Part shown: positions 1 to 25,577 of the stretch, one piece after another | Numbering within the stretch: the first letter of the stretch is position 1 | Layout: every line of letters begins with the position of its first letter | Origin: a virus | Virus record (IMG/VR): IMGVR_UViG_3300009093_000104 | Coordinates: 1 to 29,722 of that record | Direction: 5' to 3' (one strand) | Length of the DNA stretch: 29,722 nt | Translations under genes and position numbers: made by a program | The notes under the pieces: model-generated | Databases searched by the model: none | What the model was told of the DNA's origin: nothing | The model's input: only the letters and a program-made list of their open reading frames with translations

Positions 1-330
1 GTCGCTCAAGGGTCCGTTGGTCTGCACGGTGACGTCTTCCCCAATCGCAGCGGCATTGAGCGCCACGCCCGCGATCTCGGTTCCGTCCAGCGATTGCGTC
101 GGATCGGCGAGAAAGATGACTCCAGCAACAGCCTTGACGGCGCGATGCGCAAAAATCTGCTCGCCGGCCGGCATGACAATAGTCGGCACAACTCCCGTGC
201 CAGAATCGCCCTTCGGACCTTGCGGTCCAACCGGGCCACGAATTCCAGCAGCCTCGATCGCAACCTCGTCGTCCTCACGCTCGACAACGATCTCGTTGAC
301 AGTCAGCTCAACGACAACCTCATTGCTCAC
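1..330 (-). CDS. Partial virion protein with short collagen-like segment
   Basis: An open frame of 110 codons starts at a GTG at 330 and runs off the left edge with no stop. The GTG overlaps the stop of the upstream gene as GTGA. The N-terminus is acidic and beta-like (VSNEVVVELTVNEIVVERED). It is followed at about residues 35-43 by a Gly-X-Y run, GPVGPQGPKGDSG. The rest (AGVIFLADPTQSLDG, then IAGVALNAAAIGEDVTVQTNG) has the hydrophobic rhythm of a small beta-rich virion domain. Collagen-like Gly-X-Y linkers are common in tail fibres and head-surface proteins. The place directly after the head-completion genes fits a structural protein at the head-tail boundary. The C-terminus is outside the window, so family and length are unknown. 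The GTG start and the missing stop make it easy to overlook. Confidence 0.72.
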   Translation of the reverse strand, partial: MSNEVVVELTVNEIVVEREDDEVAIEAAGIRGPVGPQGPKGDSGTGVVPTIVMPAGEQIFAHRAVKAVAGVIFLADPTQSLDGTEIAGVALNAAAIGEDVTVQTNGPLSD

Positions 331-3038: not shown

Positions 3039-3524
3039 TTATGCCGCTTTCTTGCCGCCGTACTTGGCCGCGATCTTGTCCCAGCCGGACTTTGCTTCGG
3101 CAGCTGCAGCGGCGTCGGCAGGCGCATTCGCGTGCGGCGCGCCCTTTGAATCCTTGCGGATCGCGCCGAGCGTGATGCCACGATCCTTCGCTGCCTTCAT
3201 CTGCGCGAGCGCGAACTGCTCCGGCGTGTGACCGGCTTCGATCGCAGCCTTGTGCTCGGTCTCGAAACCGGGTTCGGCGATCTCGGCCAGCGCCGTCAGG
3301 CGCGCGCGCTCGGCCTTCTGTGCGTCGGCGACAAGCGTCTTGTTCGCCTCGCCCATCGAAGCCTTTGCCTCGGTCAGACCGGCGGCGTGACCTTCGGCGC
3401 GAGCCGCAGCGAGTGCGGCGGAGTTGTCGGGCTGCACGATCTCGATCTGGTCCTTGGTGTAACCGGCTTCGATCGCCGTGCGCAGATCGGCCGTGGTGGA
3501 AACCTTGACGGTCTTGTCGCTCAT
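3039..3524 (-). CDS. Probable capsid assembly/scaffold-position protein (161 aa)
   Basis: The protein of 161 aa starts MSDKTVKVSTTADLRTAIEA at an ATG overlapping the protease stop as ATGA, with GGAGG upstream. It is Ala-, Glu- and Lys-rich and predicted to be mostly helical. Two near-repeated segments are visible: TAIEAGYTKDQIEIVQ near residues 15-30 and AAIEAGHTPEQFALAQ near 95-110. In lambda the scaffold Nu3 is encoded inside the protease gene C; here a separate gene occupies the slot between protease and decoration protein. Helical, charged and low-complexity composition fits a scaffold, but no family motif proves it. The tail reads SGWDKIAAKYGGKKAA. The function is an inference from place and composition. 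Confidence 0.7.
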   Translation of the reverse strand: MSDKTVKVSTTADLRTAIEAGYTKDQIEIVQPDNSAALAAARAEGHAAGLTEAKASMGEANKTLVADAQKAERARLTALAEIAEPGFETEHKAAIEAGHTPEQFALAQMKAAKDRGITLGAIRKDSKGAPHANAPADAAAAAEAKSGWDKIAAKYGGKKAA

Positions 3525-4417
3525 TTGAAACCTCCGAATTGACGTGTTTTTGCAAGTGCGGCCGCGCGTGCGATCGTTGATTCGAGCGAGCCAATATGGT
3601 CGGCCATACCTGCCTTCACCGCGGCTTCGCCGACCAAGACGCCACCGCGGCCAAAATCTGACTTCACGACGTCCGTCGTCACACCGCGATACTTCGCGAC
3701 GGACGCGATGAACGTCGATTCGAGTTGATCGACAACAGCCTGGAACTGTGCGCGGCCGGCTTCGGTCGCGACGTTCGGTCGCTTGTTCGGTGCGTTGCTG
3801 CTGACGATCTCGTATGTGCGTTTGCCTGTCTTCGCGTCGCGTTCTGTCGTGTCCTCGACCGTGGCAACAACACCAATGGAACCGAGCACGCTTGTGCGAT
3901 CAACGGTGATTGCGTCAGGCCCAACTGCTGACATCAGCCAATAGCCGGCGCTCGCCGACGTGCCGCCTGCATAGGCGAGAATCGGCTTCGTGTTCTTTGC
4001 GACAGCGTCGGCAATGTGCGCTGCGCCTTCGTTGATGCCGCGTGCGTCGCCGCCAGGAGTATCGAAGTTCAGCACTATCGCGTTGACGCTCGGGTCGCTC
4101 ATCGTCGAAGCGAAGTCGCGCGCGAATACAGCGAGACTTTGAGCCCCACTGATCTCGGTCATCAGGTTCGAATACCGCATAATCGGCCCGACGACAGGAA
4201 CCACCGCAACGCCGTTCGAGCGTTTCTCCACCGTGCGCGTGCCGTCGAGCGGTGTGCCGCGCTGGGTTGCGAGCGCCTTGCGGTTCTCCCAATCCGCTCG
4301 AGCACGAATCAGCACATCAGCGTCGAAATCGCGGTTTGCAATAGCCAGAATCTTTTCGAGCGCCTCCGGCAAAATCAGCCAATGCTGAGCGCATGCGATG
4401 TCAAAGGCGTTGATCAT
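3521..4417 (-). CDS. Capsid maturation protease, S49 family (lambda gpC-like)
   Basis: This is a 298-aa serine peptidase of the S49/ClpP-like fold. Visible landmarks in order are VAVVPVVGPIM (residues 71-80), IVLNFDTPGGDARG (114-127, with the Gly-Gly oxyanion turn), AYAGGTSASAGYWL (148-161) with the likely nucleophile Ser156, and VLGSIGVVATVED. Lys212 in NAPNKRP is a candidate general base. In lambda, gpC processes portal and scaffold proteins inside the prohead; phage relatives without the C-terminal scaffold part are common. Here the protein ends after the protease domain, and a separate helical gene follows with an ATGA overlap, which is the usual split version of C/Nu3. The start at 4417 lies 9 bases past the portal stop. 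Confidence 0.93.
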   Translation of the reverse strand: MINAFDIACAQHWLILPEALEKILAIANRDFDADVLIRARADWENRKALATQRGTPLDGTRTVEKRSNGVAVVPVVGPIMRYSNLMTEISGAQSLAVFARDFASTMSDPSVNAIVLNFDTPGGDARGINEGAAHIADAVAKNTKPILAYAGGTSASAGYWLMSAVGPDAITVDRTSVLGSIGVVATVEDTTERDAKTGKRTYEIVSSNAPNKRPNVATEAGRAQFQAVVDQLESTFIASVAKYRGVTTDVVKSDFGRGGVLVGEAAVKAGMADHIGSLESTIARAAALAKTRQFGGFK

Positions 4418-4425
4418 TTTGGTCC

Positions 4426-6135
4426 TTAGTTGCCCGCATCCGGATCAACGTCAGATTCGGACGGATCACTCGGCGGAACTGGCTTCGCGTTCGGGTCCGT
4501 TGCCGGCGTGACACGTACCGTTCCGGTCGGGCGCAGTTCCCAAGTGCCGTCCGCCTTGCGCTGATTGATCTCGCGCACCTGCTGGTCGTACACCTGATCG
4601 CGAGATTCACCGGTCATTGCCGCGCATTCGATCGACTCATTGCTCACGCCGATCTCGATGCGCTTGGCAGCGGCCTGCGCTTCCTTCAATTCATCCATTG
4701 CGCCGCGTGCCGGGCCGATCCAGATCGCGTTCGACCAAGCGCGCCGACGAATCGGGTCGGCATAACCAGGCAGAGCAATGCGGCCGCTCGCAACTTCTTC
4801 GTCGAGCCATAGCCCGTAGATCGGCTGCGAGAACTGACCGCCGACACCGGCGCGGTGCACGAGATAGAACCGCCACGCCTGGAGCATGGCCGCGCGCGCC
4901 GCGGTATAGCTGCCGGCATACGTCAGCAAAAGCTCATCGCTCGGAATTTCGAGCGCTGCGCCGATCTGTTTCACGACCGCCACGAAGAACGGATCGAATT
5001 GTCCGTTCGGTCGTGCAGGATTAGCGAAACTCGCCTTCGTGCCATATGGTGCTTCAACAATCGCACCATTGCCCATCGCGACATTCGTCGCCTGCACCGG
5101 CGGCGCAAACGTCGTCGGGTCAGGCGATGTCGTGTCCGGGTTTGCCGTCGGCGTGCCACCAAACGGCGTTGCCTCGCTTCCGTCCAGCGCAAGGATTGGC
5201 GGCTGCGTCTGTTCGAGAAATACCGTGAACAGACTGGAGACGACGGCCGCCATCATCTCGTTTTCGGACCACTTCGAAATCTGCCGCAGCGGTTCGAGGA
5301 TCGGAGCAAGCCACGGAGCACCGCGCACCTGACCGGGGCGATCCTTGTCGCTCCACAAATGCATGACGCGGCGCCGACCTGTCATCTGGCCAAACACCGG
5401 AAAGTAATCCCACGTCGCCGGCTGCACCGCAGACATATCGTCGCCGGGGTGATTGCTGCGCACCCAGCAACCGAGCGGCATGCCAAGCCTGCTCAATACG
5501 ATGCCGTCGTGCAGTTCCGGATCAGCGTCGCTAATCCATGCGTGATTCGCCAGATTGTTCGGATTCTCGATCCGATCCGCTTCGATCAGCTGAACCTTCA
5601 AACCGGACACGCCACCCACGCGCTGTTCGAACGGCGTCAGCGCAAAGCAATCGCCGCTCATCAAAGCCGAAAGAAGTGCAAGGCTCTGCAAACCATAGAA
5701 ATCCAGCGTCGCCTCAGCATCACACTCAAGTGGATCCTCAGCCCAGCGTGCCCATGACGTGCGCAGCTGCGCGTTGATCGCTTCCGCTTCGTCAGGCGTG
5801 AGACCGAGCGTCTGATAATCGATCGCCGGTCGGCACATGAGGCCAGTACCGACGATGTTCGTACGTGCGCGCGTCAGCGCCGCGCGGGCGAGTGGATGAT
5901 TCCGAAACGCATCGCGCGAGCGAGCGCGCAGCGTGCGCGATTCGCCTGCATGTAGATCACTCTTCCCGCTGCCGATCGTTGCCCACCACGACGCAAGGCT
6001 GCGCACGACCTGAGAGGCGCCGAGCCACCGCGTGTTGAAGCGCGGCGAGGAATTCGGCGGCAATGAATCAGCCGTGATCTCCGCGACCGGCTTATCGAGT
6101 GTGCCTATGCCGCGAATGCGATCGAACAAACTCAT
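4426..6135 (-). CDS. Portal protein, lambda gpB family
   Basis: This is a 569-aa portal of the lambda family (gpB is 533 aa). I chose the ATG at 6135 (MSLFDRIRGIGTLDK), which overlaps the gpW stop as ATGA; the sequence further upstream is a shadow of gpW. Typical features are the Arg-rich segment RTLRARSRDAFRNHPLARAA near residue 80, IVGTGLMCRPAIDY, GLQSLALLSALMSGDCFAL, the block VQLIEADRIENP and, in the C-terminal half, YTAARAAMLQAWRFY. Portals form the dodecameric vertex through which terminase packages DNA. The C-terminal tail is Pro/Asp-rich (PVPPSDPSESDVDPDAGN) and probably disordered, and may be trimmed by the next gene's protease. Confidence 0.95.
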   Translation of the reverse strand: MSLFDRIRGIGTLDKPVAEITADSLPPNSSPRFNTRWLGASQVVRSLASWWATIGSGKSDLHAGESRTLRARSRDAFRNHPLARAALTRARTNIVGTGLMCRPAIDYQTLGLTPDEAEAINAQLRTSWARWAEDPLECDAEATLDFYGLQSLALLSALMSGDCFALTPFEQRVGGVSGLKVQLIEADRIENPNNLANHAWISDADPELHDGIVLSRLGMPLGCWVRSNHPGDDMSAVQPATWDYFPVFGQMTGRRRVMHLWSDKDRPGQVRGAPWLAPILEPLRQISKWSENEMMAAVVSSLFTVFLEQTQPPILALDGSEATPFGGTPTANPDTTSPDPTTFAPPVQATNVAMGNGAIVEAPYGTKASFANPARPNGQFDPFFVAVVKQIGAALEIPSDELLLTYAGSYTAARAAMLQAWRFYLVHRAGVGGQFSQPIYGLWLDEEVASGRIALPGYADPIRRRAWSNAIWIGPARGAMDELKEAQAAAKRIEIGVSNESIECAAMTGESRDQVYDQQVREINQRKADGTWELRPTGTVRVTPATDPNAKPVPPSDPSESDVDPDAGN

Positions 6136-6350
6136 CGCGGCGTCACGTAGGTCACGCCGAGTCGACCTCCGCCAGCAGATATCCGCGCTTCCTGCGCTGC
6201 GAGAGCCATGTAGGTCTTTTCGTCCGCGCACAGGGCGGCATAGTCGGCCATCGTGACCTGACGATCTTTGTACCGAACATTCTGGCCGCCGCCGCGCACA
6301 GCTACCTTCGCAGCTCGGATTGCCGCGAGTTCGTCAGCATAGATGCCCAT
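6132..6350 (-). CDS. Head-completion protein, lambda gpW-like
   Basis: This is a 72-aa protein, near the 68 aa of lambda gpW. It starts MGIYADELAAIRAAKVAVRG, with a TGATG overlap to the large terminase stop. It has the gpW pattern of helix, two short strands around QNVRYKDRQVTMADYAAL, and a second helix (DEKTYMALAAQEAR). In lambda, gpW binds the portal vertex after packaging and makes the platform for gpFII. The order A-W-B is the lambda order. The C-terminal tail GGGRLGVTYVTPR is flexible-looking, as in gpW homologues. Confidence 0.9.
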   Translation of the reverse strand: MGIYADELAAIRAAKVAVRGGGQNVRYKDRQVTMADYAALCADEKTYMALAAQEARISAGGGRLGVTYVTPR

Positions 6351-8350
6351 CAGTAAATGCTCACTCCAGATGATCGAACGACAGGCCGCTGAGGTGCGCG
6401 AATGACTGGCGCCTGTGCTGGCGCATCGAGCGGCAGCAGATCGCGCACACCGTTCGCATGCGCCAGAAACGCCTGCATTGCTTCGCAGTCCAGAAAATCG
6501 TGTTGCTTGTTGCCGCCAATCCAGATCGTGCGACCTGACGCCAAGCGCAATTGCTGCTCAGCAACCAATTGGCGGCAATACTCGGCGGCGTAATCCCACT
6601 CGCCTTCGGGGATATGGAACGCGCCAATTTCATCTTGCGGACGGTTCAGCCGACCGTGCACCCATGCCTTGAAGTGCTTGTCGGCGATCGTCCACAACGC
6701 GACCTTCGCGATCGTCTTGCTGCCGACGCGCGAGAACTCGATCTCGTTCTTGTTGAAAATCTTGCGCGGCGAGTCCATGCCCTTGATGGCAAACGCATTG
6801 GCGCCGTGCTTGAAGCACCAGTCGTAAACGACGTCGGTGCGAAAGCCCGAGTCGACGCCGACCACGTGAACCGGTATGCCGTTGTAGATGCGCATGCACA
6901 GCTTTTCGAGGCGGTCCCAGACGTCTCGCTGATCGGTTTCGCCGGCCCCGTACAACTCGCCGCATTCGATCAGCCATGTCTCGAAGCCGTAACCCCAACC
7001 GCGCACAACGAACGGCAAGCGATCCTTCTGCACGTCAACCGTGACGAAGATGCGCTGCACGCCCTTCGGCGCCGTGCCGTATGGATAAGGCGCTCCAAGC
7101 GACTCGCGCAGATCCTCCGGCTTCGCCGCATCGCCCTTGAGCGCATACAACTCACCGAAACCGGTGTTGATGATCGCGCGCACGCGCTCCTGGTCACCGC
7201 TGCGCACCGCGCGCACGTAAGACGCAGCACGTTGGCCGTATGTAAGCCACGGCGAGCACAGACCGGAAACCCAGAAGCTATAAACCTCCGTTTCCTCGAG
7301 CTGACCGACGACATCACCGTTGCCATCACCGGTCTGCAGTTCGCTGTTCGTCGGCGAACCCGGCCTGTTCGGGTCGTACCCGACCACGCTCTGGCCGGGC
7401 GCGAGAAACGTCGCGCCTGCATTCATCCGGTGCTTCGACTTCTCGTCGTGCAACGTGCCGCAGTTGGGGCACACCAGTCGCGCGGTCTTTCCTGCGTCGC
7501 GCGGCGTCGCCTTCTCGGACCATTTCAACAGCTTGAACCGCGGCACGAAGAACTGACCGCAGTCCGGGCAAGGCATTGCCCACTCGTGCCGCGTGCCTTC
7601 CTGCCACAGCTGCCAAATCTGTGACTGAACGTCTTCCGGCTTCGCCACCTTCCAGTGCTCAATGCCGGTGTCCGGATGCTTCTCGGTTTCCACGGTGCCT
7701 GCCGTTGGACTCGAAGCGCCGATCAGGCGCCCATCCGGGAACGTTGCGATGCGCGCCTCGGCGATGAATACTGGGTTGCCCTCGCCCTTGATCGCCTTCA
7801 TGCGATCGATCTCGTCGAGCAATACCGTGTGAATCGGCTCCGACGCCAGCTCGGTCGGCGAACCAGCCCACGCCATGCGCAGCGAGATGTCGCCAATCTC
7901 CTTGATCAACTTGCTCCGGCGCCCGGCCTTCGTCTTGGACCGCAGCGAAGCGCACTCGCGGATCATCTTCGCAATGCGCGGCTCGATCACGCTCGATACG
8001 TTCGACTTCGTCGGGCCGACGTACAGCATCGGCGCCGGATCGGTGTCGAACTTATGCCCGATGATGTTCAACAGGCCTTCGGTCTTGGAAACCTGCGAAC
8101 CTTCCGCCGCCCAAATCCTGCGCACCTTCGGATTGACCGCGGCGCGCATGATCGCGATCGACCACGGTGCGCGGGTCGCATCGAACGGCCCTGGCTCGGC
8201 ACTACCCTTCGGTAATTTCCTACTGTCCTTCGCCCATCGGTCCGGCGTCGTCGCTTTCGGCGCTGCGGTTGTTGGCGCCCACTTGAGCAGGCTCAGCTCG
8301 GAGAGCTGCGAGCGCTCCCGCCAAGCCCACCATGTGGCTGGCAACTGCAT
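6350..8350 (-). CDS. Terminase large subunit, lambda gpA family
   Basis: This is a 666-aa packaging motor and cos-cleaving nuclease of the GpA family (lambda gpA is 641 aa). It has a deviant Walker A, GSQVSKTE at residues 84-91, a Walker B, LLDEID at 177-182, and a coupling region IGASSPTAGTVETEK. A zinc-finger-like pair follows (C261/C264 and C294/C297), then the nuclease acidic motif GVDSGFRTDVVYDW. The C-terminus ends RSSGVSIY. In lambda the C-terminal part contacts the portal. The ATG at 8350 is the only good start and overlaps the small subunit gene by 131 bases, unusually long. The Shine-Dalgarno match there is weak, so translation may depend on coupling. Confidence 0.95.
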   Translation of the reverse strand: MQLPATWWAWRERSQLSELSLLKWAPTTAAPKATTPDRWAKDSRKLPKGSAEPGPFDATRAPWSIAIMRAAVNPKVRRIWAAEGSQVSKTEGLLNIIGHKFDTDPAPMLYVGPTKSNVSSVIEPRIAKMIRECASLRSKTKAGRRSKLIKEIGDISLRMAWAGSPTELASEPIHTVLLDEIDRMKAIKGEGNPVFIAEARIATFPDGRLIGASSPTAGTVETEKHPDTGIEHWKVAKPEDVQSQIWQLWQEGTRHEWAMPCPDCGQFFVPRFKLLKWSEKATPRDAGKTARLVCPNCGTLHDEKSKHRMNAGATFLAPGQSVVGYDPNRPGSPTNSELQTGDGNGDVVGQLEETEVYSFWVSGLCSPWLTYGQRAASYVRAVRSGDQERVRAIINTGFGELYALKGDAAKPEDLRESLGAPYPYGTAPKGVQRIFVTVDVQKDRLPFVVRGWGYGFETWLIECGELYGAGETDQRDVWDRLEKLCMRIYNGIPVHVVGVDSGFRTDVVYDWCFKHGANAFAIKGMDSPRKIFNKNEIEFSRVGSKTIAKVALWTIADKHFKAWVHGRLNRPQDEIGAFHIPEGEWDYAAEYCRQLVAEQQLRLASGRTIWIGGNKQHDFLDCEAMQAFLAHANGVRDLLPLDAPAQAPVIRAPQRPVVRSSGVSIY

Positions 8351-8762
8351 TGCGTACCCCGTTGCATTCTTCGATCATGCGGGCGCGAACCAGCGCCGGC
8401 TCGTTGATGCCAGCGAGCACGCCGGCGACCCGACCAGGAAGCGCAGACATTTGCTGTGCAATCTCGCCGGCCACGTGACCGATGACGGCGTCATGCGCCT
8501 CGGCCTTGATGTAATCACCCTGGCGCACCAGGTTTTCGAACTCCGCCTTCTCGGCCTGAGCGATGCGCAGGCGGTCGCTGGCAGATTGATCTGAGTCGTT
8601 TCTGTGAATCAGCCAGTCGATCGCTTCGGCCGAGTCAATCTCGTGTGCCGTGCCGTTCTCGCCACGTATACGCACTGGCATGTCGGCAGCGATCAGCTTG
8701 GAAACGTAAGCCGGCGATTTCCCAATGATTTCAGCGAACTGGGCGGCACTGACAATCGACAC
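8220..8762 (-). CDS. Terminase small subunit, lambda Nu1 family
   Basis: This protein of 180 aa (lambda Nu1 is 181) starts MSIVSAAQFAEIIGKSPAYV. The N-terminal winged helix-turn-helix (residues 7-45, AQFAEIIGKSPAYVSKLIA and then a MPV turn) binds cosB DNA in lambda. A helical stretch (RLRIAQAEKAEFENLVRQGD) follows, then VIGHVAGEIAQQMSALPGRV, which matches the Nu1 dimer and gpA-interaction part. The C-terminal tail is encoded in the overlap with the large subunit gene. It is the first gene after the cos candidate, as in lambda, and its DNA site should lie in the 60 bases upstream. Confidence 0.92.
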   Translation of the reverse strand: MSIVSAAQFAEIIGKSPAYVSKLIAADMPVRIRGENGTAHEIDSAEAIDWLIHRNDSDQSASDRLRIAQAEKAEFENLVRQGDYIKAEAHDAVIGHVAGEIAQQMSALPGRVAGVLAGINEPALVRARMIEECNGVRNAVASHMVGLAGALAALRAEPAQVGANNRSAESDDAGPMGEGQ

Positions 8763-8791
8763 TATGCGGCAACCCTTTACAAACTATTTCG

Positions 8792-8858
8792 GATCAAACA
8801 GTTACGATAAATGCGCCCGTCTTGACCCGCTATTCGCTCGAGTCTGCAGAAAGGACCC
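8792..8858 (-). other. Candidate cos site: cosQ, predicted cosN and IHF-like site
   Basis: The gap between the lysis genes and the terminase small subunit contains GGGTCCT (8852-8858, minus strand), identical to the lambda cosQ core as I recall it, with the shared TTTC start after it as GGGTCCTTTC. In lambda 23 bases separate cosQ from the first base of the left end, which starts GGG. Here exactly 23 bases follow, and then GGGTCAAGACGG (8817-8828). On the plus strand, 8792-8804 reads GATCAAACAGTTA, matching the IHF consensus WATCAANNNNTTR at all positions but the first. Lambda has an IHF site in cosB on this side. No R1-R3 repeats were recognised, and the nick positions are inferred by alignment only. 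Confidence 0.68.
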
Positions 8859-8888
8859 GCGATTGCCGATGAAAAAAATTCATGCGCA

Positions 8889-9182
8889 TCACTGAATCGC
8901 CTTGGCTGCCCTGGCTGCGTTGATGCAGTTCACGCACGCTTGACGATATTGGTCGCATTGCGCGTGCTCCACGTCGTGAGCATCGAACAGCGCGCTCAGT
9001 CGGTCGCCGTCCCGGTCGCCATCCCATGCGGTGAGTGAGTCGCACTGCTGGAAGCACAGCTGGTCGCAGTGAACGTCAATCGGCTTCGTGGGATTTGTCG
9101 TGTTGCATCCGGTGATTGCGCTGGCTATTGCGACCAGCGCGGCCATTCCAACACTCCAAACCACAGGGCTTTCGAATCTCAT
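8889..9182 (-). CDS. Rz1-like outer-membrane spanin lipoprotein
   Basis: This is a 97-aa lipoprotein. A hydrophobic signal (residues 8-25) ends in the lipobox ITGC, making Cys26 the likely lipidated residue. The mature part is Cys-rich (C39, C43, C47, C76, C83, C86), with HCDQLCFQQCD and QYRQACVNCINAARAAK. This differs from the Pro-rich lambda Rz1 but resembles Rz1 candidates of D3-type pseudomonad phages. It starts with an ATGA overlap to the i-spanin candidate, the usual Rz/Rz1 coupling. O-spanins join the inner-membrane Rz to disrupt the outer membrane at the last step of lysis. It is the last gene before the cos candidate, as Rz1 is in lambda. Confidence 0.75.
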   Translation of the reverse strand: MRFESPVVWSVGMAALVAIASAITGCNTTNPTKPIDVHCDQLCFQQCDSLTAWDGDRDGDRLSALFDAHDVEHAQCDQYRQACVNCINAARAAKAIQ

Positions 9183-11030: not shown

Positions 11031-11376
11031 TTTGATCACACTCCTTAGACTGCTCACGGCCTTGGCCGCGATTGATGATGCCGAACGCTACCGGGCTACC
11101 GACGCATACCGCGAAGTAGCTCAGGAACATGAAATCCGAAAGTTTGTCGTGCAGCGTTTCGTACGTGACGATCCACGTGCCGATGAAGAATCCGCCGATG
11201 CCTGTCATCTTCGACCAGCTCGCCTTACCATCGGCGCCGAGCACCAGATCCACGAAGTCGACCTGATTCACCGACTTCTGCACGCGCCACAGGATGTAGA
11301 GCAGCATCAGCGTGCCAAAGAACAACACGAATGACAGTGGATCGAATCGACCGTATAGGCAATCGATGATCGTCAC
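11014..11376 (-). CDS. Three-helix membrane protein, class I holin candidate
   Basis: This is a 120-aa protein starting at a GTG that overlaps the endolysin stop as GTGA. Three membrane segments are clear: about residues 13-31 (LSFVLFFGTLMLLYILWRV), 57-75 (TGIGGFFIGTWIVTYETL) and 82-102 (FMFLSYFAVCVGSPVAFGII). The C-terminus is charged (NRGQGREQSKECDQNERSP). Size, three helices, charged tail and direct coupling to the endolysin gene fit a class I holin, although in lambda the holin precedes the endolysin. Phage membrane proteins of this outline are also annotated simply as unknown, so the role is inferred from context. Confidence 0.68.
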   Translation of the reverse strand: MTIIDCLYGRFDPLSFVLFFGTLMLLYILWRVQKSVNQVDFVDLVLGADGKASWSKMTGIGGFFIGTWIVTYETLHDKLSDFMFLSYFAVCVGSPVAFGIINRGQGREQSKECDQNERSP

Positions 11377-11861
11377 GACGCGAAATACTCACCGCCCGCG
11401 CGCTTGTACGATTCGATCAAGTCCGCCATGCGCTGTTCGTGCTGACCGTAGCCAGCTTCAGGAAGTGACGCCCAAACGTGCGCGCACTTCTGCACGACAC
11501 GCTCGAAATATCCGGCCGCTGCATCGGCAATCGCATCGCACTCGTGGATCAGCTCGATGCAGCCGTAGTCCTGGCTCAGTGGCGAGAAGTCGGGCAAGTG
11601 CAGCTTTTGGCTCAGCGCAAACCAGGTGCCGTAAAGGAACTGATAGCGCCCAGCGGCAGTTGAGCTCACCGCGCGATTCAGAATGCGCGGATGGTGGCTG
11701 TAATCGCCGAACGTCAGCGGGTGAGATGGAGTCGCGCCGACCAAGCAGTTGTAGCCGTCATCCGTGATGGCGAGTAGCGTTGGCCCTATTTCGCTCCAGG
11801 CAAATGCGTCCAGAACCGCCGCTACGTTCGCGCCGGCCTCGTCTCGACTAATTCGCGGCAC
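11373..11861 (-). CDS. Endolysin, lambda R-type lytic transglycosylase
   Basis: This is a 162-aa enzyme of the lambda R family (158 aa), which cleaves the MurNAc-GlcNAc bond of peptidoglycan to give the 1,6-anhydro product. The catalytic Glu is E24 in AFAWSEIGP, matching AWSE of lambda R. Further family landmarks are DDGYNCLVGA, LTFGDYSHHPRILN, STAAGRYQFLYGTWF, LPDFSPLSQDYGC and the C-terminal HVWASLPEAGYGQHEQRMAD. There is no signal sequence, so it depends on a holin for release. It starts with GTG at 11861, one base after the preceding small gene's stop. Its stop overlaps the GTG of the three-helix membrane protein. Confidence 0.95.
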   Translation of the reverse strand: MPRISRDEAGANVAAVLDAFAWSEIGPTLLAITDDGYNCLVGATPSHPLTFGDYSHHPRILNRAVSSTAAGRYQFLYGTWFALSQKLHLPDFSPLSQDYGCIELIHECDAIADAAAGYFERVVQKCAHVWASLPEAGYGQHEQRMADLIESYKRAGGEYFAS

Positions 11862-25047: not shown

Positions 25048-25326
25048 ATGGCAACTAAGAAAGCAAGCCGTCCCGTAATCGTCTGCACTGAGCATCGCGG
25101 CGTGTTCTACGGTCATGCGAGTGACACGAAGGGAACCGTGATCGACCTCACTGGGGCGCGCATGGCGATTCAGTTTGGCACCACACGCGGCGTGATGGAG
25201 CTGGTTGAAACTGGCCCGACCTCGCGCAGCAAAGTTTCCGCCCGCGCGGATATCGAAGTGCGCAAGATCACCGCAGTTTTCGAAGTGACGCCAGTCGCCG
25301 AAAAGGCATGGGAAGCCGCGCCGTGA
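25048..25326 (+). CDS. Small beta-rich early protein (92 aa)
   Basis: The ATG at 25048 has AGGAGTG upstream. The 92-aa protein starts MATKKASRPVIVCTEHRGVF and has repeated strands: YGHASDTKGTVIDLTGARMA, IQFGTTRGVMELVETGPTS, VRKITAVFEVTPVAE. This resembles a conserved small phage family (a DUF6948-like outline, from memory) found in early operons, with no known role. The stop is overlapped by the next GTG start as GTGA. The 54 bases before it hold no gene. Confidence 0.7.
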   Translation: MATKKASRPVIVCTEHRGVFYGHASDTKGTVIDLTGARMAIQFGTTRGVMELVETGPTSRSKVSARADIEVRKITAVFEVTPVAEKAWEAAP

Positions 25327-25577
25327 ATCCCATCGCGTACCGCGAACGAGTGACCGTCATCGACGTACTCGAAACCGGCGCGTGCTTTGAAGGCGTGAAG
25401 GCTTGGATTGAGCGAGTCGGCGTCATCGTTGTGAAGGCTGCTGATTACCTGCGCGAGCAATGGATACAGTACGCAGCAGTGATCTACGGCGACGGCTACG
25501 GCGACGGCTACGGCTACGGCGACGGCTACGGCTGCGGCTACGGCGACGGTTACGGCTACGGCGACGGCTACGGCTAA
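25323..25577 (+). CDS. Early protein with Tyr-Gly-Asp-Gly repeat tail (84 aa)
   Basis: The GTG at 25323 overlaps the previous stop as GTGA. The first 54 residues form a normal small domain (VNPIAYRERVTVIDVLETGA, CFEGVKAWIERVGVIVVKAA). The last thirty residues are only Tyr, Gly, Asp and one Cys, in YGDG/YG units, down to the stop. I recall Gly/Tyr/Asp-rich tails like this from other phage proteins of unknown role. The tail is probably disordered or adhesive. It is encoded by a 12-base direct repeat in which Gly is almost always GGC. Confidence 0.75.
   Translation: MNPIAYRERVTVIDVLETGACFEGVKAWIERVGVIVVKAADYLREQWIQYAAVIYGDGYGDGYGYGDGYGCGYGDGYGYGDGYG
25485..25574 (+). repeat. Coding direct repeat, GGCGACGGCTAC units
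   Basis: Ninety bases made of GGCGACGGCTAC and shorter GGCTAC units, in frame with the gene. One unit has TGC for TAC and one has GGT for GGC. Such a tract can change length by slippage, so the number of units may vary between related phages. Confidence 0.9.

Follow-up and report, generated by a model that had tools for sequence, protein, structure and literature searches.

A probable lambda-type cos site between the lysis and terminase genes of an uncultured phage

Results

Position and layout of the site. A short minus-strand stretch of a 29,722-base IMG/VR virus record, analyzed here in full (the window), is with high confidence the cos site of a phage organized like lambda, at which a concatemer would be cut into sticky-ended genome lengths for packaging. 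We read the stretch as a lambda-type cosQ plus cosN on the strength of its motifs, their spacing, their partial conservation, the ends of related genomes, and the gpA domains of the large terminase. The motifs, the spacing, the partial conservation, and the gpA domains were observed directly, as was a contig end at the homologous base of one relative. The coordinates of the site and of the neighboring genes are collected in Table 1.

Table 1. Features of the cos region and of the surrounding genes in the window
Feature	Coordinates	Strand	Basis
cosQ, GGGTCCT	8852-8858	-	Exact match; unchanged in L007 (96% identical), present in L009
Spacer from cosQ to the predicted top-strand cut, 24 bases ending in GCG	8828-8851	-	Site layout; 3 of 24 bases differ in L007
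Putative cosN, predicted 12-base 5' cohesive end GGTCAAGACGGG between GCG and CGC	8816-8827	-	Likeness to the lambda, N15, and VP882 record ends; contig start of L084
Presumed short cosB	8763-8815	-	Position only; 1 of 53 bases differs in L007
TerS (Nu1-like small terminase)	8220-8762	-	PHROG 57, E 4.8e-23; Pfam Phage_Nu1 25.8 bits, below the cut-off of 30
TerL (gpA-type large terminase, ATPase plus endonuclease)	6350-8350	-	Pfam GpA_ATPase (1-244 of 247) and GpA_nuclease (3-290 of 294); PHROG 15
Portal protein	4426-6231	-	PHROG 21, E 2.4e-103
Head maturation protease	3521-4417	-	PHROG 53, E 4e-66
Rz1-like lipoprotein ORF, upstream of cos	8889-9182	-	Lipobox-like N terminus by eye; weak match to PHROG 2425, function unknown
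Endolysin, lysis region	11373-11861	-	PHROG 90, E 4.9e-38

On the minus strand, GGGTCCT occupies 8858-8852, with no second exact copy in the window. The earlier note had described it as followed, after exactly 23 bases, by a GGG start, and this count is correct: bases 8851-8829 separate it from GGGTCAAGACGGGCGC, and GGGTCAAGACGG begins there (8828-8817). In lambda, cosQ is the signal for the termination of packaging. Read 5' to 3' on the minus strand, the stretch comprises GGGTCCT, 24 bases ending in GCG, GGTCAAGACGGG (8827-8816), CGC, 50 further bases, and the TerS start at 8762. In this reading, CG precedes the cut on both strands, 12 bp apart (GCG^GGTCAAGACGGG^CGC), an arrangement absent when the overhang is placed at 8828-8817. 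The first base of GGTCAAGACGGG (8827) would thus be the left end of the mature genome, of which the TerS start codon is bp 66. Over the 21 sites compared, the spacer is 20 to 24 bases long; it is 23 in lambda and N15. In the window, a copy of AATmGCGGGTC lies at cosQ and another, 30 bp away, at cosN, and a similar repeat is present in lambda. The idea that cosQ is a half copy of cosN was rejected, since the flanks of cosQ and cosN in one phage did not clearly resemble each other more than those of different phages did (21 sites, p 0.08 to 0.23).

The candidate lies in a 126-bp gap between the Rz1-like ORF and the TerS gene, which bears out the earlier placement between lysis and terminase genes, as lambda cos lies before Nu1. 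The order of genes on the minus strand is that of lambda: a Q-like antiterminator, the endolysin with further lysis-region ORFs, the Rz1-like ORF, the gap, TerS, TerL, a head-tail adaptor, the portal, the head protease, and the major head protein. A gpA-type TerL with both ATPase and nuclease domains and a Nu1-type TerS are thus found beside the site. At E 1e-5, TerS matched only VP882 and phiHAP-1 in the phages collection. Elsewhere in the window, at 25484-25576, there is an array of the 6-base unit CTACGG (15.5 copies, 83% matches), which encodes a Gly-Tyr-Gly-Asp repeat at the end of an ORF (25308-25577).

Chance expectation and recurrence in relatives. The presence of GGGTCCT alone is unsurprising, since 1.36 copies are expected per window from shuffled windows and one was found. 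The strict layout, defined as GGGTCCT (or AGGTACT)-N16-23-CGGG-N9/10-CGC, occurs once in the window and was found twice in 300 simulated windows that matched it in dinucleotide composition, and 72 layout sites appeared in these 300 when one mismatch in GGGTCCT was permitted.

Relatives were collected by TerL searches, which gave 156 loci from viral contigs (best 80) and bacterial genomes, and by further TerL searches (best 80 per search), which gave 148 additional locus ids on partly overlapping contigs. GGGTCCT in the sense orientation was present between -1300 and +100 of TerL in 25 of the 128 listed loci that extend 600 bases or more upstream, redundant loci included; the rest of these loci, with 32 copies in 1,324,379 bases, gives an expectation of about 4 for the 174,993 bases examined. 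Among the matches listed, 21 distinct upstream sites were found, of which 15 have CGGG 18 to 22 bases later and 6 do not, and no offset outside 18-22 has more than 3 of the 21.

Upstream of a gpA-type TerL, the strict layout was found in 18 of the 107 distinct relatives among the matches listed, 11 of them with GGGTCCT and 7 with AGGTACT, against 0 of 107 in the antisense orientation and 0 of 107 downstream of TerL. With one mismatch permitted, the respective numbers, for the same 107 distinct loci among the matches listed, were 20, 1, and 0. AGGTACT entered the pattern once VP882 and phiHAP-1 had shown it, and the first sites likewise prompted the addition of CGGG and CGC, so the count of 18 is not a blind one; the main strength of the comparison is its zero controls. 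The strict layout is absent from the other 89 of the 107 distinct relatives among the matches listed, so that either it is confined to part of the family or it has drifted past the pattern elsewhere. In VPHZ6, the highest-ranking named phage in the TerL listing, GGGTCCT precedes TerS, but CGGG is missing there. The alignment with related phages that the earlier note had suggested as a check thus turns out in favor of the site for part of the relatives, in which both order and spacing are kept.

Order and spacing recur in L007 (96% DNA identity), in L009 (TerL 60% identical), and in more distant relatives. The window and L007 differ at 66 of 1,600 aligned bases; no differences fall in cosQ (0 of 7), in the 30 bases to its left, or in the flanking GCG and CGC, while GGTCAAGACGGG differs at 3 of 12 bases (bp 4, 11, and 12; 2 of 12 for the overhang at 8828-8817). 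The excess of substitutions in the overhang over the 66 in 1,600 has a Fisher p of 0.011, on small numbers, and would fit cohesive ends that need only match each other. In lambda-like phages, according to the text available from PMC4669245, variation falls mainly in overhang bp 7-12 and cosQ is highly conserved.

An earlier scan of viral contigs for GGGTCCTTTC-N17-25-GGGTCA, a pattern based solely on the window, found 48 contig stretches. In seven of them a gpA-type TerL ORF follows in the same orientation 454-671 bases downstream, and 21 or 24 bases separate GGG from GGGTCCT; the TerL lies further off in 3, and in 38, some of them too short, there is none in the available sequence. Five contig stretches (L010:2421, L022:264, L026:249, L035:4246, and L045:7300) share an identical 24-mer, GGGTCCTTTCGGCGGTGGGTTGAG; these have GGGTCA 26 or 27 bases after GGGTCCT and no gpA-type TerL match in the available sequence, two of them with fewer than 300 bases downstream.

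Were the site a chance match, with packaging by headful or from another end, the 1.36 copies of GGGTCCT expected per window and the scarcity of a nearby gpA-type TerL in the pattern scan (7 of 48) would be accounted for. This explanation is highly improbable in view of the recurring order and spacing in L007, L009, and distant relatives, the zero exact-layout matches in the controls, and the gpA type of TerL.

Ends of related genomes. In N15 the annotated end falls within the layout, as do the record ends of lambda and VP882. All three records start right after CG, at the same point of the layout, and the first 12 bases of the N15 record are annotated as a single-stranded 5' extension. For VP882, the accessible part of a qPCR study states that its cos site is not present in packaged form (PMC11315295).

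Contig ends were then counted. Of the 62 rows in which fewer than 2,380 bases precede TerL, L120, L202, and L203 do not start at a contig end, which left 59 distinct contigs ending upstream of TerL. Twelve of these start with GGT (p 2e-10 at the measured GGT rate), a pattern first noticed on a smaller set that is included in the larger one counted. The starts of L073, L137, and L300 look accidental, because they have matches inside other loci that are not preceded by a cos layout; 9 GGT starts are left after their removal (p 6e-7). The clearest case among the 9, L084, begins with GGTTCGTGGAGGCGCGC exactly at the predicted cut, and in L082 (the same contig as L245), identical to L084 over 300 bases, the cut base is internal and preceded by AGGTACTTCCGGGAGGGGGCCTCGTGCG. 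For the remaining eight, none of the loci contains an internal copy. Seven contigs whose starts are cos-like or lie nearby, five of them beginning with GGT and two not, do not have their opposite ends at cos, and GGGTCCT-N10-30-CGGG was absent from 15 such records, many of them short and perhaps fragments. The right-end results are neutral to slightly negative.

Position of the predicted cut. We place the predicted overhang, GGTCAAGACGGG, at 8827-8816, one base to the right of the earlier placement, and consider this shift probable from sequence comparison. The left end is taken to be that of GGTCAAGACGGG because the ends of lambda, N15, VP882, and L084 follow CG and the contig starts read GGT; in the 18 relatives with the full layout, CGGG is part of the search pattern itself. 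The CG flanking the cut is described as highly conserved in lambda-type cos sites in the text available from PMC4669245. GCG, 12 bases, and CGC are kept in L007 and L009. The distance from the CG cut to CGC is 12 in lambda, N15, the window, L007, L009, L069, L070, and L084; it is 11 in VP882, phiHAP-1, L075, L079, L158, L178, L181, and L196, and neither in L095, L130, L132, L143, L175, and L065. The two values may mark two classes of end length.

The same site could instead be cut to leave GGGTCAAGACGG (8828-8817), 23 bases after GGGTCCT as in lambda, a reading we regard as unlikely. Two-fold symmetry in the window speaks for it, with 5 of 8 pairs (10 of 16 bp) against 2 of 8 (4 of 16 bp) for the CG register, and lambda and N15 likewise have 5 of 8 in their true register; lambda cosN is given 10 of 16 bp of two-fold symmetry in the part of PMC9026076 at hand. 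Among 13 sequences, however, the CG register is the more symmetric in 6 (L009, L084, L069, L070, lambda, and N15), tied in 3 (L007, L075, and L178), and the less symmetric in 4 (the window, L079, phiHAP-1, and VP882), the last three by one pair; an 11-base center is best for L079, L178, phiHAP-1, and VP882. The lambda, N15, and VP882 records start after CG, the L084 contig starts with GGT after GCG, and GGGT begins none of the 62 contig or locus starts listed. Hence, of the earlier claim of cohesive ends near 8817-8828, the site stands and the register probably shifts by one base to GGTCAAGACGGG, although the symmetry of the window itself favors the former.

A cos site of the HK97 kind, with 3' overhangs produced together with an HNH partner, appears extremely improbable. 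The polarity of an overhang is unreadable from sequence, which leaves room for this scheme, but TerL is of the gpA type, no HNH family in PHROGs was matched by the 20 window proteins scanned (a subset of the ORFs), and the 140 bases around the HK97 record ends contain neither GGGTCCT nor CGGG. An end of the HK97 type was rejected as a model on this last ground as well.

The region between cosN and TerS. An IHF-like match with one mismatch is present at 8792-8804 on the plus strand. It carries no weight, because 17 such matches (at most one mismatch) occur in the window and 16.4 are expected; the IHF-like site that the earlier note had invoked in cosB exists at the level of chance and was dropped as evidence. 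The search for Nu1-type repeats (R sites) in 8763-8815, also suggested there, found none, nor were R-type repeats found in 8480-8900, a repeat of bp 37-70 in bp 71-420 of the predicted mature genome, or an inverted R copy in the window (there is one in L009). A complex cosB, with three R sites and the IHF site I1, was thus not found. The description of the site as a complete cos holds for a lambda-type cosQ and cosN, partly conserved, beside a gpA-type terminase, and is unsupported for the IHF and R sites.

R3 lies at bp 50-65 in lambda and at bp 48-60 in N15, and its distance to cosN is critical, according to the text available from PMC9026076. In the predicted mature genome, bp 48-65 correspond to 8780-8763 and adjoin the TerS start codon. 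With TerS at bp 66, a 53-bp gap, and no repeats, the layout therefore appears closer to the simple cosB of N15 than to the complex cosB of lambda. In L009, a lambda-R-like CGTTTCCCTTTCTT is present at 3471-3484 (bp 43-56 of the predicted genome) and an inverted CCCTTTCTT at 3595-3603 (bp 167, in TerS); together they resemble the R3/rR2 pair of N15. In VP882 (L002, NC_009016.1), GTCCTTTCT occurs at 68-76 (minus strand), 124-132 (plus), and 194-202 (plus), i.e., three times in the first 202 bases, with 0.04 copies expected in 3,000 bases. These copies are possible TerS-binding R sites of the VP882 cosB.

The window element GGGTCCTTTCT contains the same 9-mer, and VP882 is one of the two named phages that match TerS, so GGGTCCTTTCT might be a TerS-binding R-type repeat rather than cosQ. 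We consider this very unlikely: the part that recurs in relatives is GGGTCCT, 20 to 24 bases before the cut, and not TTTCT, VP882 has a separate AGGTACT at the cosQ position, and GTCCTTTCT occurs in the window once only, at cosQ.

Discussion

The site in the window resembles several known systems in different respects. With lambda it shares the order of lysis genes, cosQ, cosN, TerS, and TerL as well as an identical GGGTCCTTTC; it differs in that Nu1 starts at bp 191 in lambda, while in the window TerS is preceded by 53 bp that contain neither repeats nor a convincing IHF site. The lambda cosB is given as R3-I1-R2-R1 in the available part of PMC9026076. Compared with GGGCGGCGACCT, GGTCAAGACGGG shares the leading GG and scattered bases with no further identity; therefore the phage is not a "lambda-like phage" in the narrow sense and only has the same kind of site. 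N15, with its simple cosB, shares GGGTCCT, CG before the record start, CGC after 12 bases, and TerS near the left end (bp 89 in N15). Its 23-base spacer is also that of the window when counted to the GGG start; the window spacer is 24 in the CG register, with TerS starting at bp 66 and no recognized R3, and the N15 overhang is GGGCGGCGTCCG. A single R3 is described for N15 in the portions of PMC4669245 and PMC9026076 available, and a simple cosB of this type also has an inverted rR2 within TerS.

VP882 and phiHAP-1 (Hapunavirus) match in TerS and have AGGTACT, a 22-base spacer, CACG, GG..., and CGCGGG; their cosQ is thus AGGTACT, the distance to CGC is 11 instead of 12 bases, and VP882 carries the GTCCTTTCT repeats near its left end. 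The prophage of Rudaea sp. 3F27F6 (L141), whose cos region is identical to that of the IMG/VR contig L009/L064, has a TerL 60% identical to that of the window, GGGTCCTTTC, a 23-base spacer, GCG, 12 bases, and CGC; it differs in its overhang, GGAACGCAGAGC, and in having the R3-like CGTTTCCCTTTCTT at bp 43-56 and the inverted CCCTTTCTT at bp 167 in TerS.

By analogy with lambda, from which the roles of cosQ and cosB are taken, the site may work as follows. On the concatemer, TerS would bind just to the right of cosN, in the 53 bp between the overhang and its own gene and near bp 48-65, and would set two gpA-type TerL nucleases on cosN. These would nick the strands 12 bp apart, after GCG on each, to give predicted 5' overhangs with GGTCAAGACGGG on the top strand. 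TerL would then pump DNA from the TerS-proximal end, leftward in the window through the TerS, TerL, portal, and head genes, until packaging halts at the next cos, where GGGTCCT as cosQ would be needed for the final cut.

The site is of a known lambda-type kind and was previously unlabeled, in an uncharacterized environmental phage; judged by its sequence, it is very probably functional. An uncultured phage thereby gains a probable left end, which allows the genome to be opened at the right place and packaging to be put to the test. The cosQ motif and the cut flanked by CG recur beside gpA-type terminases whose identity to that of the window is only about 35-60%, despite changed overhang, spacer, and cosB. 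In the titles and abstract openings among the literature matches listed, a rule across gpA phages was not described; this coverage is partial and we make no claim to novelty. The chances are about even that a cosQ/cosN code, consisting of RGGTMCT, 20 to 24 bases, CG, the cut, GG, 11 or 12 bases, and CGC, is ancient and applies generally to gpA-type terminases well beyond the lambdoid phages, with two classes of end length (12 in lambda and the window phage; 11 in VP882, phiHAP-1, and prophages of the Pseudomonas group), so that the sequence would give the genome ends of many uncultured phages to single-base precision. If the recurrence holds more widely, genome ends would become predictable in metagenomic contigs.
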